Source: an uncultured Erysipelotrichaceae bacterium (GTDB lineage Bacteria > Bacillota_I > Bacilli_A > Erysipelotrichales > Erysipelotrichaceae). From it: 32,891 nucleotides of DNA. The translations under genes were made by a program, and so were the position numbers. Each line of letters begins with the position of its first letter. Position 1 is the first letter of the stretch. The stretch covers positions 1-32,891 of the forward strand of contig CAMVGT010000030.1 of NCBI GenBank assembly GCA_947167125.1, read 5' to 3'. Below are positions 8,078-13,771 of the stretch, piece by piece. The notes beneath the pieces are model-generated. The model had not been told where the DNA came from. It saw only the letters and a program-made list of their open reading frames with translations, and made no database searches.

Positions 8078-8422
8078 ATGAAAACTGTAGGAATGAAAGA
8101 ATTTGCGGAAGCCATCGCTGCTGCAGGTTTAAAGGATAAGGCTGCTGAAGCTGCTTCAAAAGGAAAAGAAGCACTGATCGCATTCGCGGCTGAAAACGGA
8201 TTAGATCTGAAGATCGATGAAGCAGCAGGCACGCAGGCACTTGCGGATGATGCCCTGGACGCAGTCAACGGCGGCGTCGGTGAAGTGATCATGTCGCAGG
8301 AATGGTTCAAGTGGCTGATGTCCCTGCTCGGCCTTGAACAGGATGCCTTCAATCATGTGAAGAAGAAGGATACAGCTGCGAAGAAAAGCAGCGAGGATTT
8401 AAACGGAAAAATCGCTGGCTGA
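8078..8422 (+). CDS. Small protein with double-glycine leader motif (putative RiPP-type precursor)
   Basis: This gene encodes 114 residues. The N-terminal half is Ala/Lys/Glu-rich and helical. It ends in ALADDALDAVNGG (54-66), which resembles the LsxxELdxVaGG cleavage motif of Nif11-type and other double-glycine leaders. Cleavage after G66 would leave a 48-residue product starting VGEVIMSQEW. That product has no cysteine, few Ser/Thr, an amphipathic tryptophan-containing stretch (EWFKWLMSLLG) and a Lys-rich tail. No modification enzyme or peptidase-containing ABC exporter is in the window, so an unmodified bacteriocin-like or signalling peptide, or a cytoplasmic protein with a chance motif, are all open. 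It has its own promoter and terminator, so it is a monocistronic unit. Confidence 0.75.
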   Translation: MKTVGMKEFAEAIAAAGLKDKAAEAASKGKEALIAFAAENGLDLKIDEAAGTQALADDALDAVNGGVGEVIMSQEWFKWLMSLLGLEQDAFNHVKKKDTAAKKSSEDLNGKIAG

Positions 8423-9089: not shown

Positions 9090-9389
9090 ATGCTCAATAT
9101 TGTTAAAACAGCTGAGGAAGGCAAAGTAACATATTCCCTGGAAGGAAGGCTCGACACCAATACATCCGAAGAGCTTGAAACAGATCTGACTGAAACCATT
9201 CAGGAAGCGGAAGAACTGATCATGGACTTTGAAAAGCTTGATTATATTTCTTCTGCCGGCCTCCGCATTCTGCTTGCGGCATACAAAGCAATGGTGAAAA
9301 AAGGCGGAATGAAAGTAGTCCATGTGAACAGCACAATCATGGAGATTTTTGACGTCACAGGATTCTCGGATATCCTGACGATTGAATAA
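9090..9389 (+). CDS. STAS-domain anti-sigma factor antagonist (first copy)
   Basis: This gene encodes 99 residues from ATG 9090, with AGGAGG 8 nt upstream. It is a single STAS domain of the SpoIIAA/RsbV type: the GRLDTNTSEEL start, the central FEKLDYISSAGLRILL with the phosphorylatable serine region S54/S55, and the HVNSTIMEIFDVTGF end. Such proteins bind an RsbW-like kinase when unphosphorylated and so release its target. The next gene, 134 nt downstream, encodes a fusion that contains both a STAS and an RsbW-like ATPase, an obvious partner. A second copy with a nearly identical C-terminal third lies inverted at 13475-13771. Confidence 0.92.
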   Translation: MLNIVKTAEEGKVTYSLEGRLDTNTSEELETDLTETIQEAEELIMDFEKLDYISSAGLRILLAAYKAMVKKGGMKVVHVNSTIMEIFDVTGFSDILTIE

Positions 9390-9523
9390 GAACGGCTGAT
9401 GCCTTATAAAAGAACAGATAAACGCTGAACAGGACAGACTTTTTCATGCGGCAGTGCCGTATATGCAATCTTACAGAGTACTGCCCAGAATGCCTTTGAT
9501 TTGGCAATGAAAGGACCGAAAAC
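9390..9523 (+). other. 134-bp spacer between STAS genes
   Basis: There is no clear terminator. It contains ATGCGGCA-G-TGCCGTAT-type dyad symmetry around 9446-9462, sharing ATGCGGCA with the leader of the first STAS gene. I see no strong promoter, so the downstream genes may be partly read from the upstream promoter. Confidence 0.35.
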
Positions 9524-11092
9524 ATGAGCGATGATATATTTACAATTGAGCTGAAAGGCAGAATCGATTCAGGGAATTCCCATGAAGTCGAAGAAAGTAT
9601 AATGAATCAGCTTTCCGGATATACCGGGAAGTCTGTCATTCTGGATGCGGAAGATCTGGAATATATTTCTTCTGCCGGTCTGCGGGTCCTTCTGCGGATT
9701 AAAAAAACATACCCGGATCTTCAGATTGTCAATGTCAGATCCGAAGTATATGAGATTCTTGAGATGACCGGCTTTACGGAAATCATGACTGTAAAGAAGG
9801 CATACCGTGTTGTGTCTGTCGAGGGATGCGAAGTCATCGGCCAGGGTGCCAACGGAACAATCTACAGAATCGACAAGGACAATGTTGTAAAGGTTTATAA
9901 CAATGCCGATGCGCTCGAAGACATCCAGCATGAACGTGAAGTCGCAAGACTCGCGCTGGTTCTCGGCATTCCTACCGCGATCTCCTATGATGTGGTAAGA
10001 GTCGGGGACAGCTATGGATCTGTCTTTGAACTTCTGAATGCGAGATCCTTTACCAAGATCCTGGTGAATGAACCGGAAAAGATGGACTGGTGCGTTGAGG
10101 AGTATGTAAAAATGCTCCGGAAGATTCACGATACCGTCGTTCCGGAAGGAAAGCTTCCTGACATGCGGCAGACAGTCATCGGCTGGGCTGAATTCATGAA
10201 GGATTATCTTGAACCGGCGGATGGGGAAAAGCTGCTTTCACTTGTAAAGGCAATTCCGCATGACAATCATATGATCCACGGTGATTACCATACAAAGAAT
10301 CTGGAACTGCAGAATGATGAAGTTCTTCTGATTGATATGGACACACTGGCTGTCGGCCATCCGATCTTTGAACTGGCGTCTATTTACAACGCATATATCG
10401 GCTTCTCGGAATACGATCATGAAGTGATCAAAAAATTCCAGGGCTTTGACTTTGAGACCGGAAAGAAATTCTGGCACAAAGTCCTTTCGGCATATCTCGA
10501 CACAAAGAGCGAGACAAAGATCAAGGAAGTCGAAGACAAGGCACGCATTGTCGGCTATACCCGGATCATCCGCAGATCCATCCGCAGAGGCGGCCTGGAA
10601 AATGAAAAGAGCAGAGCGGAGATTGAACTCTGGAAGAAGAATCTCGTCGAGCTTCTGCATAAGACCGATACATTGAATTTTGAACTGAACGAACTGGAAA
10701 TAGAAGCGGATATCGATAAGCTGCAGGAAGTTCTTTCCTTTATTGAAGAACATCTTTCCAAAACAGACTGCTCGCCCAAAGCAGAGATGCAGATCAGTCT
10801 TGCGGCAGAAGAAATCTTTGTGAATATTGCCAGCTATGCATACAATCCGAATAAGGGAAAGGCATGGCTCAGAATTGAAGTCTCAGATGAGCCGGTTACT
10901 GTAACGCTCACATTCACCGATCAGGGAATGCAGTATGATCCGCTCGCAAGACAGGATCCGGATGTAACGCTGCCGGCTGAAGCACGTGAGATCGGCGGTC
11001 TCGGCATCTTCCTTGCAAAACAGACCATGGATGATGTGATCTATGAATACAAGGACGGCAAAAACATACTTCAGCTGAAAAAGAATCTTTAA
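9524..11092 (+). CDS. Three-domain fusion: STAS - APH-like kinase - RsbW-like ATPase
   Basis: This gene encodes 522 residues. Residues 1-90 form a STAS domain with YISSAGLRVLL (S49/S50). Residues 100-380 form an aminoglycoside/choline phosphotransferase-fold kinase: glycine-rich GQGANG at 106-111, K123 in VVKVYN, catalytic HGDYHTKN at 252-259 and metal-binding LLIDMDT with D271. It resembles the TIGR02172 group. Residues 395-522 form an RsbW/SpoIIAB-type GHKL ATPase: N-box E429/E430 with N434, DQGMQYDP at 466-473 and GGLGIFLAK at 491-499. So the antagonist, an extra small-molecule-kinase-like domain and the anti-sigma/protein-kinase module share one chain. The kinase motifs look intact. Nothing marks it as an antibiotic resistance enzyme. 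A PHP gene follows after 19 nt and the EIIB-ROK fusion after that. Confidence 0.88.
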   Translation: MSDDIFTIELKGRIDSGNSHEVEESIMNQLSGYTGKSVILDAEDLEYISSAGLRVLLRIKKTYPDLQIVNVRSEVYEILEMTGFTEIMTVKKAYRVVSVEGCEVIGQGANGTIYRIDKDNVVKVYNNADALEDIQHEREVARLALVLGIPTAISYDVVRVGDSYGSVFELLNARSFTKILVNEPEKMDWCVEEYVKMLRKIHDTVVPEGKLPDMRQTVIGWAEFMKDYLEPADGEKLLSLVKAIPHDNHMIHGDYHTKNLELQNDEVLLIDMDTLAVGHPIFELASIYNAYIGFSEYDHEVIKKFQGFDFETGKKFWHKVLSAYLDTKSETKIKEVEDKARIVGYTRIIRRSIRRGGLENEKSRAEIELWKKNLVELLHKTDTLNFELNELEIEADIDKLQEVLSFIEEHLSKTDCSPKAEMQISLAAEEIFVNIASYAYNPNKGKAWLRIEVSDEPVTVTLTFTDQGMQYDPLARQDPDVTLPAEAREIGGLGIFLAKQTMDDVIYEYKDGKNILQLKKNL

Positions 11093-11111
11093 GGAATCCA
11101 AGGGTACATAT

Positions 11112-11975
11112 ATGAAACTGAACGGAAAAATAGACTTGCATATGCACACGACTGTTTCGGACGGAACAGACTCGCCGCAGGAAATTATCGCAAAAGTGAA
11201 AGACGCGGGTATCGTTTTCTTTTCAGTGACTGATCATGACGCCATCAAAGGAGGAAAAATCATTCCTCCTCTTCTTCAGGAAGGAGATCCGCTGTTTATC
11301 ACAGGCGTGGAATTCTCCTGCAAGGATGAAGAAGGCCAGTACCATATTCTCGGCTATAACTACGATCCGGATTCCCCTTCCATTCAGGAGGTTGTGGATC
11401 TCGGACACCGTTACAGAATGCAGAAGCTGCAGGAAAGACTGGATTTTCTGCAGAATGAATTCGGCTTTGTTTTTCCAAAAGAGGAACTGGAACAGCTGTT
11501 TTCAATGGACAATCCCGGAAAGCCGCATATCGGCAACATGATGGTCCGCTGCGGCTATGCGGAAACCAAAGAAAAAGCAATCAAAGAGTTTATCAACAAA
11601 AAACGTTTCCTTGATGAATATGTCAGACCCGAAGAAGCGATTGAAGGAATCCTCAAGGCAGGAGGCGTTCCGGTTCTTGCCCATCCGGCATACGGAAGCG
11701 GCGATCAGCTGATTCTGGGTGAGGTAATGGATCACCGTCTGAGAAAACTGATCGGATTCGGACTGGAAGGCATTGAAGCTTTCTATTCCGGTTTCTCAGA
11801 GAAGATTCACGCCAGCATGATGAAATTTGCGGAAACATATAATCTGTATGTCACAGCAGGAAGCGATTACCATGGCCGCAACAAGATTATCAGCCTTGCG
11901 GATAACGGGATGGATGAGAATGAAGAATATCCCGAAGGAATGGTCCGCTTCATGAAGCGTGTCGGTATCATCTGA
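11112..11975 (+). CDS. PHP-domain phosphoesterase (RNase AM / YciV-like)
   Basis: This gene encodes 287 residues. It carries the metal-binding motifs of the polymerase-and-histidinol-phosphatase fold: DLHMHTTVSDG near residue 8, VTDHDAIKG, the Glu of GVEFS, LAHPAYG and the C-terminal SDYHG. Length and the insert between the central motifs match the YciV/TrpH group. That group hydrolyses 3',5'-nucleotide bisphosphates such as pAp and acts as a 5'-3' exonuclease on RNA ends. It is cytoplasmic and uses two or three divalent metals. It sits 19 nt after the STAS-kinase-ATPase fusion and 36 nt before the EIIB-ROK gene, inside one operon. A dedicated link to the signalling proteins is inferred only from position. 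Confidence 0.87.
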   Translation: MKLNGKIDLHMHTTVSDGTDSPQEIIAKVKDAGIVFFSVTDHDAIKGGKIIPPLLQEGDPLFITGVEFSCKDEEGQYHILGYNYDPDSPSIQEVVDLGHRYRMQKLQERLDFLQNEFGFVFPKEELEQLFSMDNPGKPHIGNMMVRCGYAETKEKAIKEFINKKRFLDEYVRPEEAIEGILKAGGVPVLAHPAYGSGDQLILGEVMDHRLRKLIGFGLEGIEAFYSGFSEKIHASMMKFAETYNLYVTAGSDYHGRNKIISLADNGMDENEEYPEGMVRFMKRVGII

Positions 11976-12011
11976 AATACATCAATAAAGCAGAAATGAA
12001 GGAGGTACAGC

Positions 12012-13421
12012 ATGGACGCAGAAAAAAAGACGGACGCTCAGCTGATTGAATGGATCAGAAGCAGAAATCACGGCGGATATGAAGTTGAAGAAACGTCCGA
12101 AGAAAACCGGAAAGTTCTGACATTGCATACTTCCTATGCGACAGGAACCGTCAGGATCAATTATCTCGATTATGTGATTGCGGAATACATCATCGAAAAC
12201 CAGGAAGGTGAGAATGTATTTTATCTTCATTTTGAGCTGGATGATATTGAACATGCGAAGGATCTGTTTTCAGAGATGGAGGAATGCCTGCTGAAACAGA
12301 AAACCCGCCGCAAAAGAAATGTCCTGCTCTGCTGCACATGCGGACTGACAACTTCGTTTTTCGCGATGCGTCTGAACGAAGTGGCGAAGCTTCTGAATGC
12401 GGAAATGGAATTCACGGCAGTGCCGTATGAAAAAGTATTTGAATCCGCGGAAAGCCAGGACGCGATTCTGGTCGCACCGCAGATCGGCTATAAATGGAAA
12501 AGCATTCAGGAAATCATTACCGATAAAATCGTGATGAAGATTCCTGCGGCTGTCTTCTCCGCCTATGACGCCGGAGCGATGGTGCAGATGCTTGTAAAGG
12601 CTTTTGAAGAAGCCGAAGCCTCAAAAGAAGAAGTTTCAAAAGAAACAGAAAAAGAACATCTTGCGGCGGATGAAGGATCTGTACTGATTCTTTCCGTTAT
12701 TTATATGGAAGGCAGAAACCAGATTGCCTACCGTCTCTATGACCATAATGAACTGGTCAGGGAAAACCAGATCACAAAGGAAACCTATCAGCTCAGCGAC
12801 ATTACAGACGCATTGAGAACTGTCACAAGACTGAATCCGGAACTGCGTCAGATCTGCATCGTGACACCGGGCATGATCCAGAACGGCAAACTGACCTATG
12901 AGAATGTAGGAATCGCGGATTATGATCTTGTTTCAAAAGTAAAAGAATTCTTTGAGGGAGAAGTTTTCCTGTATAACGATGCGGATATGATCGCCCTGGG
13001 CTATGCCCATCAGCACTGCCCGGACGGCAGCTGCGCATTCTACTTTGTGCCGACCGGAAACTATGCCGGCAATATCGGCATTTCCGTCAACGGAACTCTG
13101 ATCCGCGGCAGGGGAAATATGGGCGGCAGACAGCTGGAAGCTGTAACGGATATCACAACCTTCCCGATGAATCCGTTTGCCCTGCAGAGAACACCGGAAG
13201 GCAACGTCGAACTTGCCGCAAGATATCTGACAGGATTGTTCTCCTATACCGGAATTGATCATATTGCCTTCTACAGCAAGATGATCCCCAATGCGGATGT
13301 ACTGATTGAAAAGATGAAAACCTTCATTCCGGAACAGTATATGCCGGAAATTGTCAGAGCGGAAAGCGTCAGGGATTATCTCTACGCCGGCGCACTGGCA
13401 AGCATTCACACACATCAGTAA
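12012..13421 (+). CDS. Fusion of PTS EIIB (lactose/cellobiose type) with degenerate ROK domain
   Basis: This gene encodes 469 residues, with AAGGAGG 7 nt before ATG 12012. Residues 1-100 are an unknown alpha/beta segment ending in a basic linker. Residues 102-200 resemble lactose/cellobiose EIIB: VLLCCTCGLTTS places C108 where the phosphorylated cysteine sits, followed by ILVAPQIGYKWKSI. After an acidic, Lys-rich linker (200-222) comes a ROK-like actin-fold domain. There the DxGGT motif is lost (LILSVIYMEGRNQ), but YNDADMIALG and a weak second phosphate loop (PTGNYAGNIGISVNGT) remain. It lacks the zinc Cys motif. I infer a PTS-state sensor or regulator rather than a working kinase or permease, since no EIIA or EIIC is present. 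It is the last gene of the STAS operon. Confidence 0.82.
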   Translation: MDAEKKTDAQLIEWIRSRNHGGYEVEETSEENRKVLTLHTSYATGTVRINYLDYVIAEYIIENQEGENVFYLHFELDDIEHAKDLFSEMEECLLKQKTRRKRNVLLCCTCGLTTSFFAMRLNEVAKLLNAEMEFTAVPYEKVFESAESQDAILVAPQIGYKWKSIQEIITDKIVMKIPAAVFSAYDAGAMVQMLVKAFEEAEASKEEVSKETEKEHLAADEGSVLILSVIYMEGRNQIAYRLYDHNELVRENQITKETYQLSDITDALRTVTRLNPELRQICIVTPGMIQNGKLTYENVGIADYDLVSKVKEFFEGEVFLYNDADMIALGYAHQHCPDGSCAFYFVPTGNYAGNIGISVNGTLIRGRGNMGGRQLEAVTDITTFPMNPFALQRTPEGNVELAARYLTGLFSYTGIDHIAFYSKMIPNADVLIEKMKTFIPEQYMPEIVRAESVRDYLYAGALASIHTHQ

Positions 13422-13443
13422 AGACTGATTAAGAGACAAAATG

Positions 13444-13467
13444 AAAACCGGAGCGATCCGGTTTTTA
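13444..13467. terminator. Bidirectional terminator between EIIB-ROK and inverted STAS gene
   Basis: Stem AAAACCGG/CCGGTTTT (13444-13451 with 13458-13465) has loop AGCGAT and is followed by T on the plus strand and TTTT-rich sequence on the minus strand. The genes converge here. Confidence 0.85.
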
Positions 13468-13474
13468 TCATGGC

Positions 13475-13771
13475 TTATTCAATTGTCAGAATGTCAGTGA
13501 AGCCTGTAATCTCGAAGACTTCCATGATCGTGCTGTTGACGTGAATGATTTTCATGGAGCCCTGATTCCGCATAACCTTCTGTGCGGAAAGAAGCACTCT
13601 GAGACCAGCGGAAGAAATATATTCCAGTTTCTCAAAATCAAAGATCAGACTTTCAATGCCATTCAGCACATTCTTGAGATATTTTTCAAGCTCGGGGGAA
13701 GTCGTTGTGTCAAGACGTCCTTCCAGCAGCATTGTCAGTTCCGTATTGTTTAATATATGGTCAATCTTCAT
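13475..13771 (-). CDS. STAS-domain anti-sigma factor antagonist (second, inverted copy)
   Basis: This gene encodes 98 residues. ATG 13771 is preferred because AAAGGAG lies 11 nt upstream; the in-frame ATG at 13804 has none. It is one STAS domain with FEKLEYISSAGLRVLL. It is strongly similar to the copy at 9090-9389: GRLDT, the serine region and HVNSTIMEVFEITGFTDILTIE match with only conservative changes. The two therefore arose by duplication and bracket the fusion-protein operon head to tail. It has its own promoter and can supply a second antagonist for the RsbW-like module under separate control. Confidence 0.9.
   Translation of the reverse strand: MKIDHILNNTELTMLLEGRLDTTTSPELEKYLKNVLNGIESLIFDFEKLEYISSAGLRVLLSAQKVMRNQGSMKIIHVNSTIMEVFEITGFTDILTIE

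Follow-up and report, generated by a model that had tools for sequence, protein, structure and literature searches.

Partner switching has been known chiefly as a way of controlling sigma factors. Several described systems resemble the locus reported here, as far as the available text of the respective papers covers them. In Pseudomonas aeruginosa, the phosphorylation state of SiaC is governed by the PP2C phosphatase SiaA and the kinase SiaB; this SiaABCD system operates together with the diguanylate cyclase SiaD and is responsive to the carbon supply (PMC7647112). The SypA/SypE pair of Vibrio fischeri consists of a STAS-domain protein and a serine kinase (PMC10120452), and the SigB cluster of Bacillus cereus encodes an HPr-like protein, Bc1009, reported to lie downstream of SigB (PMC9912610). 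The choice of STAS substrate by SpoIIE and RsbU has been tested (PMC11418112). A survey of STAS-only proteins names a STAS-glycosyltransferase protein, with the words "fusion" and "aminoglycoside" absent from the available portion of its text (PMC8256260). The window analyzed in this study is a stretch of 32,891 nucleotides from an uncultured Erysipelotrichaceae bacterium (contig CAMVGT010000030.1 of assembly GCA_947167125.1, positions 1 to 32,891, forward strand), which is contig C30 of a 2.87-Mb genome in 130 contigs that is 94% complete. Its subject is a five-gene locus built around a protein in which STAS, APH-fold kinase, and RsbW-type HATPase domains are fused.

Judged from sequence, the locus represents a real, recurrent variant of partner switching that is undescribed as far as a search of the open-licence literature reaches. 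In open-licence PubMed Central, no title or abstract start was found that described a STAS-APH-HATPase fusion or a link between EIIB-ROK proteins and partner switching. The reading preferred here, with confidence a little short of even, is that of a sigma-B-independent partner-switching hub, in which dispersed PP2Cs and a pseudokinase responsive to the phosphotransferase system (PTS) would control an APH/PHP enzyme pair. The five genes named in the original prediction, two free STAS genes, the fusion gene, a PHP gene, and an EIIB-ROK gene, were all recovered as open reading frames at the places given, with every claimed domain above its Pfam cut-off.

The fusion protein and its neighbors in relatives

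The fusion gene (9524-11092, + strand) encodes 522 amino acids, with a STAS domain at approximately residues 3 to 92 (PF01740, E = 2.4e-15), an APH-fold kinase domain at approximately 103 to 293 (PF01636, E = 3e-13), and a HATPase_c_2 domain at 393 to 520 (PF13581, E = 1.7e-21). An alignment was built from this protein and 69 further complete fusions, out of 76 labeled among the loci of relatives. Invariant residues were S49, S50, and G52 in the STAS domain; G106, G108, K123, H252, G253, D254, H256, N259, and D271 in the APH domain; and E429, E430, N434, G491, G492, L493, and G494 in the HATPase domain. The pattern HGDxHxxN with a later Asp, which we take to be the phosphotransferase motif of APH enzymes, was kept in 70/70 aligned fusions. 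The E...N box pattern was present in 103/103 RsbW-type HATPase domains and the GGxG-type box in 74/75 fusions, the one exception being truncated where its contig ends. All three domains of the predicted protein carry intact motifs. By profile, the HATPase domain matched the structures of RsbW and SpoIIAB, and the nearest solved kinase to the APH domain was hygromycin-B 4-O-kinase. The fusion also matched TIGR02172 with 97 bits against a cut-off of 228, its APH region spanning most of the model. The invariance of the APH residues speaks for an output that is enzymatic.

Of 149 related genomes, counting its own, 62 matched the fusion query at an E value of ≤0.001. The whole query was covered by one stop-free match in 10 genomes besides its own, and many others had STAS-APH and HATPase as separate matches; a chance read-through as the source of the predicted fusion is ruled out. 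In an even draw across the phylum, 12 of 392 genomes (own included) matched at ≤1e-30, and the whole query was covered in the own match only. A contig search found 96 stretches that encode a relative of the fusion, of which the best 80 were used. The named loci came mostly from rumen and gut metagenome-assembled genomes with record titles such as Oscillospiraceae, Ruminococcaceae, Lachnospiraceae, and Clostridia. In a quick tree, the window protein fell among records titled Clostridia with weak support, which is compatible with transfer of the fusion between lineages and offered as a suggestion.

Gene order was compared in 100 loci labeled with profiles grown from the window and relative proteins. 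The loci were picked by fusion similarity (80 from the contig search and 20 by hand from the genome matches, with four duplicates later dropped), and the counts are therefore not population frequencies. Directly upstream of 72 complete fusion genes, a PP2C gene was found in 41 cases, STAS in 22, an unlabeled gene in 8, and a gene on the opposite strand in 1. The position directly downstream was taken by PHP in 41, an unlabeled gene in 13, an opposite-strand gene in 5, STAS in 4, DUF218 and MatE-HATPase in 3 each, and MatE, a distant gene, and a contig end in 1 each. Across the 96 loci with an APH gene, PP2C was within 6 kb in 62 and PHP within 6 kb in 52. In many relatives, a sensor PP2C gene of the SpoIIE type lies between STAS and the fusion (e.g., L044, L046, L047, and L086). 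The HATPase domain was found on the fusion, on the PP2C (L054 to L056, L058, and L060), or alone (L049, L053, L059, and L137), and such shifting among fusion, phosphatase, and free gene is as expected for parts of one pathway. Pfam confirmed examples of PP2C, PP2C-HATPase, MatE-HATPase, and DUF218 among the neighbors, including one PP2C with a dCache domain (L086). The accessible part of one report places dCache serine phosphatases among candidate autoinducer-2 receptors of rumen bacteria (PMC9540692).

The outcome named in advance as refuting the predicted system, neighbors not kept together among relatives, was not obtained, and conservation of the neighborhood was borne out in part. The STAS, fusion, and PHP genes often occurred together, and one EIIB-ROK clade was tied to partner-switching genes, but the exact order STAS-fusion-PHP-EIIB-ROK was not seen in any labeled locus besides the window. 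The nearest orders were PP2C-fusion-PHP-EIIB-ROK (L041) and STAS-PP2C-fusion-PHP-DUF218-EIIB-ROK (L044).

The PHP gene (11112-11975, + strand), which begins 19 bases after the fusion gene, encodes a metallophosphoesterase of 287 amino acids (PF02811, 29.2 bits against a cut-off of 26.4). In an alignment of the window protein with 34 of the 54 homologues labeled in the loci of relatives, the residues H10, H12, D17, H42, E67, H78, H191, D252, and H254, which are of the metal-ligand type, were invariant. The nearest solved chains were 3e0f, 9etk, 2yb1, and 7ug9. Against the NCBIfam equivalogs for 3',5'-nucleoside bisphosphate phosphatase and RNase Rnm, the protein scored 109 and 104 bits (cut-offs of 400 and 375, respectively), matches too far below cut-off to name a substrate. 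Of the earlier label "PHP nucleotide phosphoesterase," the family and its metal-ligand-type residues stood up, whereas the nucleotide substrate found no confirmation. With these residues invariant, the PHP neighbor may work as another enzyme in the pathway of the APH domain.

MatE transporter genes with a C-terminal HATPase domain were found in or near the module at 15 of the 96 loci, within 6 kb (L102:9591-11354, L117:10795-12567, and 13 further loci). The E...N box was kept and GG(L/M/Y/F)G was absent in 15/15, and the protein is perhaps a STAS-responsive transporter. These genes bear on another reading of the fusion, in which the APH-fold domain would be a protein kinase or a regulatory pseudo-enzyme and the whole protein a two-kinase scaffold acting on proteins, such as transporters. 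APH and protein kinases have a common fold, and the box pattern of the MatE-HATPase proteins is consistent with a STAS-binding acceptor. However, the nearest profiles were APH and TIGR02172, the nearest solved kinase phosphorylates hygromycin B, and no MatE-HATPase gene is present at the window locus; the scaffold reading is considered rather unlikely, and a small-molecule enzyme is preferred. Other genes were seen around the module of relatives. At L117:3067-7460, two ABC transporters, one of them with a C39 peptidase, are encoded between the STAS-HATPase genes and the fusion. At L200:7482-8858, a gene of the Xan_ur_permease family lies downstream of STAS-APH, and genes with similar N termini occupy that position in several further relatives.

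Free STAS proteins, sigma factors, and phosphatases

The free STAS proteins are the candidate substrates of the fusion. STAS1 (9090-9389, + strand; 99 amino acids; PF01740, E = 3.1e-15) is RsbV/SpoIIAA-like and also above the cut-off of TIGR00377, and a gap of 134 bp (9390-9523) separates its gene from the fusion gene. STAS2 (13475-13771, - strand; 98 amino acids; PF01740, E = 2e-13) is convergent with the operon and 64% identical to STAS1 over 88 amino acids. STAS1 has the acceptor-type loop Ser-Ser-Ala-Gly-Leu (S54-S55), and S-S-(A/S)-G-(L/M) was present in 80/81 free STAS proteins, STAS1 and STAS2 included. In the assembled genome, STAS matches numbered three, all inside the window locus (STAS1, the fusion, and STAS2).

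The genome gave ten matches to sigma region 2. Two of these proteins also have region 3 and are RpoD-like (L186 and L187; 574 and 402 amino acids), scoring 127 and 126.5 bits with the SigBFG model (cut-off, 234); the remaining eight exceed the sigma70-ECF cut-off. None of the ten sigma matches of this 94%-complete assembly reached the cut-off for a SigB/F/G-type factor. The output is therefore probably not sigma-B-like, a SigB-like target being unlikely, and the classical SigB reading was for this reason not the first choice. A broader anti-sigma system would remain in keeping with the RsbV/RsbW-like STAS and HATPase domains and with the eight ECF-like factors and the second RpoD-like protein: the HATPase would sequester one of these sigma factors, STAS would act as anti-anti-sigma, and APH and PHP would be passengers. 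Against this, no SigB/F/G-type factor was found, the sigma models having been run on the own genome and not on the flanking open reading frames of relatives, many of which are unlabeled. In addition, the catalytic residues of APH are invariant in all aligned fusions, which would be unexpected for a passenger. An anti-sigma system is thus regarded as quite unlikely, and the enzymatic hub is retained as the preferred reading.

The statement that no PP2C is present was true of the 4.7 kb of the locus but does not describe the system, as the genome holds four PP2Cs with intact Asp residues elsewhere. Of five SpoIIE-family matches, none in the window operon, those on contigs C4, C27, C59, and C119 (L146 to L149) keep all six near-invariant Asp columns. 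All four proteins have hydrophobic segments; C4 has propeller repeats, C27 has 5TMR-LYT, and C59 and C119 are unlabeled outside PP2C. The fifth match, on C1 (L150), was by judgment left uncounted as a PP2C of the pathway, because it lies beside an Fe-hydrogenase-like gene and keeps 2/6 Asp columns, with the other four unaligned in the profile alignment. Upstream of one of these PP2C genes, L146:1838-3136 encodes an HPr domain fused to a D-2-hydroxyacid dehydrogenase.

The lack of a PP2C gene beside the fusion, where 41/72 relatives have one directly upstream, could also mean that the window locus is a decayed remnant in which the phosphatase was lost and the switch is dead. However, none of the five genes is broken and their motifs are preserved, four PP2Cs are still present in the genome, and a STAS gene is often the one directly upstream of the fusion (22/72). 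Decay is therefore highly improbable, and a working switch served by distant phosphatases is the better account.

Across the 149 genomes, strong SpoIIE matches (E ≤ 1e-40) were found in 57 and strong fusion-query matches (E ≤ 1e-20) in 56, with both in 56; these thresholds were set after the listings had been viewed. Within the genus, 51 genomes had both and 19 had neither. Where the fusion query matched strongly (56 genomes), the median number of SpoIIE-family matches was 4. Sixteen long PP2Cs picked from relatives (1,060 to 1,164 amino acids) had no STAS, APH, or HATPase gene within stretches of 6 to 11 kb, and a propeller was found in 3/3 of those scanned. This arrangement would fit phosphatases that act on a distant hub.

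HATPase_c_2 matches in the genome numbered seven, the fusion being the best with 80.7 bits and the next reaching 44.8 and 38.7. The other six included histidine kinases on C113, C64, and C12, a stand-alone HATPase_c_2 protein and a HATPase_c protein on C75, and a stop-interrupted match on C35. Beside the stand-alone protein, L151:3123-6317 (C75) holds an Fe-S protein gene cluster and a small PHP-domain gene.

The EIIB-ROK protein and the PTS

The EIIB-ROK gene (12012-13421, + strand) begins 36 bases after PHP and encodes 469 amino acids: an unlabeled N terminus of approximately 95 residues, an EIIB domain of the lactose/cellobiose type at approximately 100 to 200 (PF02302, E = 5.8e-7), and a ROK-like domain at approximately 234 to 469 (PF00480, E = 3.6e-7). 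It was aligned in 36 rows, 19 from its clade (window included) and 17 from paralogues, with two rows from the same gene of genome G055. Cys108 of the EIIB domain, to which phosphotransfer had been proposed, was confirmed in the window protein and kept in 36/36 rows. ROK sugar kinases characteristically carry a DxGxT phosphate motif and a glycine-rich second loop. DxGx(T/S) was absent from the expected columns in 36/36 rows, and the Gly-loop pattern was found in 0/19 clade rows versus 10/17 paralogue rows. By profile, the structure matches were to EIIB only (cellobiose/chitobiose EIIB). The kept Cys108 together with the missing DxGxT thus suggests a sensor, and the protein is most naturally read as a putative pseudokinase sensor charged by the PTS. 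The claim that EIIA is lacking held for the locus but not for the genome, which encodes a lactose-type EIIA, as well as HPr, elsewhere.

EIIB-ROK belongs to a large paralogous family, with matches at ≤0.001 in at least 101 of the 149 genomes. Among the matches listed, the window protein and 18 relatives stood apart, with 44 to 63% identity to the window protein versus ≤39% for the others, and they formed a clade in FastTree with a support of 1.000. In 17 of these 18 relatives, the contig also carries a partner-switching gene no more than 3.3 kb away. In 11 this is a STAS gene at ≤60 bp, in 2 an abutting STAS-APH or PP2C-HATPase gene, and in 4 the fusion at 0.5 to 3.3 kb. In G063, STAS is the only such gene before the contig ends, and in G004 there is nothing near. 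The order in many clade relatives was EIIB-ROK, STAS, (PP2C-)HATPase, STAS-APH. A partner-switching domain lay within 1.5 kb at 16/19 clade loci versus 0/11 paralogue loci, and six wider paralogue neighborhoods (one repeating a gene of the 11) contained no partner-switching genes. The predicted link between the PTS and partner switching gains genomic support. From gene linkage only, we infer that PTS phosphorylation may control the switch.

Around the EIIB-ROK gene of several relatives (L206, L207, and L209), genes for MupG, asparaginase, and an SDF symporter were seen (by Pfam for L206), along with a GH1-like gene identified by its N terminus only. Because some of these clade neighbors are sugar related (MupG and the GH1-like gene), because many members of the family lie away from STAS genes, and because 91/96 fusion or STAS-APH loci had no EIIB-ROK gene within 6 kb (32/96 being near a contig end), EIIB-ROK could be a mere sugar-PTS regulator that sits beside the switch without crosstalk. 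This account is unlikely, though a serious contender: a single, fully supported clade keeps the company of partner-switching genes through several gene orders, and its paralogues do not. Input from EIIB-ROK into the switch is accordingly kept in the preferred reading as a conditional part.

The operon and STAS2 are separated by a hairpin with terminator features (13444-13465), near symmetrical and terminator-like on the - strand, the only strand for which the terminator scan reported it. The surrounding region (13436-13474) gave folding z values of -4.9 on the + strand and -3.4 on the - strand. The separate promoters proposed for the two STAS genes drew no support from sequence, as the promoter scan found 12 promoter-like sites in the locus where shuffled sequence gave 9.8 ± 3.6, which is chance level; that STAS2 points the opposite way is the sole reason why it would need its own. 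Further upstream, at 8078-8422, the window encodes a 114-amino-acid protein with a weak similarity to Nif11-like leaders (E = 0.027, below cut-off) and a Gly-Gly motif, possibly the precursor of a ribosomally synthesized and post-translationally modified peptide.

Proposed mechanism and comparison with known systems

In the proposed mechanism, the HATPase domain of the fusion would transfer phosphate to the conserved Ser in STAS1 and STAS2, and possibly to the one in its own STAS domain. On arrival of a signal, sensor PP2Cs, which are encoded elsewhere in this genome and beside the fusion in many relatives, would strip this phosphate. Unphosphorylated STAS would then bind the fusion and shift the state of the APH-fold kinase in the same chain. 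The APH domain may phosphorylate a small-molecule or nucleotide-like substrate, with PHP removing the phosphate in the same pathway, and the EIIB-ROK pseudokinase, carrying a PTS phosphoryl group on Cys108, would pass the status of sugar import into the switch. All steps of this scheme that involve phosphorylation, binding, or catalysis are inferred from sequence, as are its substrates and which component controls which. A bolder version would be a new signaling class, in which the STAS/HATPase state toggles the attached APH kinase, that kinase makes a phosphorylated, perhaps nucleotide-like, messenger that is destroyed by PHP, and several PP2C sensors and PTS-charged EIIB-ROK converge on one hub, so that an enzyme pair and not transcription is driven; this is judged distinctly improbable.

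Several observations weigh against the preferred hub. The window operon has no PP2C of its own, and its pairing with the four distant PP2Cs depends on there being no other STAS protein in a 94%-complete assembly of 130 contigs. Where PP2C and HATPase are encoded by a single gene, some of the co-occurrence of PP2Cs with the fusion follows automatically, and in one genome (G082) a strong SpoIIE match is not accompanied by any fusion-query match. The stand-alone HATPase_c_2 protein on C75 is intact at 142 amino acids and above the Pfam cut-off, with weak similarity to SpoIIAB (41.9 bits versus 135), and it or the C35 match could in principle act on the window STAS proteins. The EIIB-ROK gene was near only 5/96 fusion or STAS-APH loci, and it is therefore to be seen as an accessory of some Erysipelotrichia versions and not of the core. 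The HPr-dehydrogenase gene was considered as a further PTS link and rejected, as it was beside 0/16 of the long PP2Cs of relatives.

The locus is of interest because partner-switching parts are here joined to a kinase-like enzyme, in genomes with several PP2Cs and, in the window genome, with no SigB/F/G factor detected. One fusion protein provides a concrete candidate target for the dispersed PP2Cs. If EIIB-ROK does feed in, rumen and gut fermenters would have a direct coupling of sugar-PTS state to a switch based on Ser phosphorylation.

The RsbU/RsbV/RsbW (sigma-B) and SpoIIE/SpoIIAA/SpoIIAB (sigma-F) switches of Bacillus share with this locus the acceptor-type Ser of STAS and the RsbW-like HATPase and, through the PP2Cs encoded elsewhere in the genome, perhaps also the SpoIIE-type PP2C. 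Here, in contrast, the HATPase is fused to STAS and APH, no SigB/F/G factor was found, the PP2Cs are dispersed, and PHP and EIIB-ROK are partners. To our knowledge, SypA/SypE is without APH or PTS parts. TIGR02172, an APH-like paralogue family of Fibrobacter, aligns with the APH region of the fusion at the sub-cut-off score given above, and STAS and HATPase are added here. As far as its available description goes, the Bc1009 cluster of B. cereus is similar in having a PTS-like phosphocarrier within a partner-switching cluster but differs in that this is HPr-like, with no EIIB-ROK (PMC9912610). SiaABCD appears, from the accessible account, to be the nearest known partner switch that is tied to an enzyme and responds to carbon; it differs in that its enzyme partner is a cyclase rather than an APH kinase/PHP pair and in having no STAS-kinase fusion (PMC7647112).

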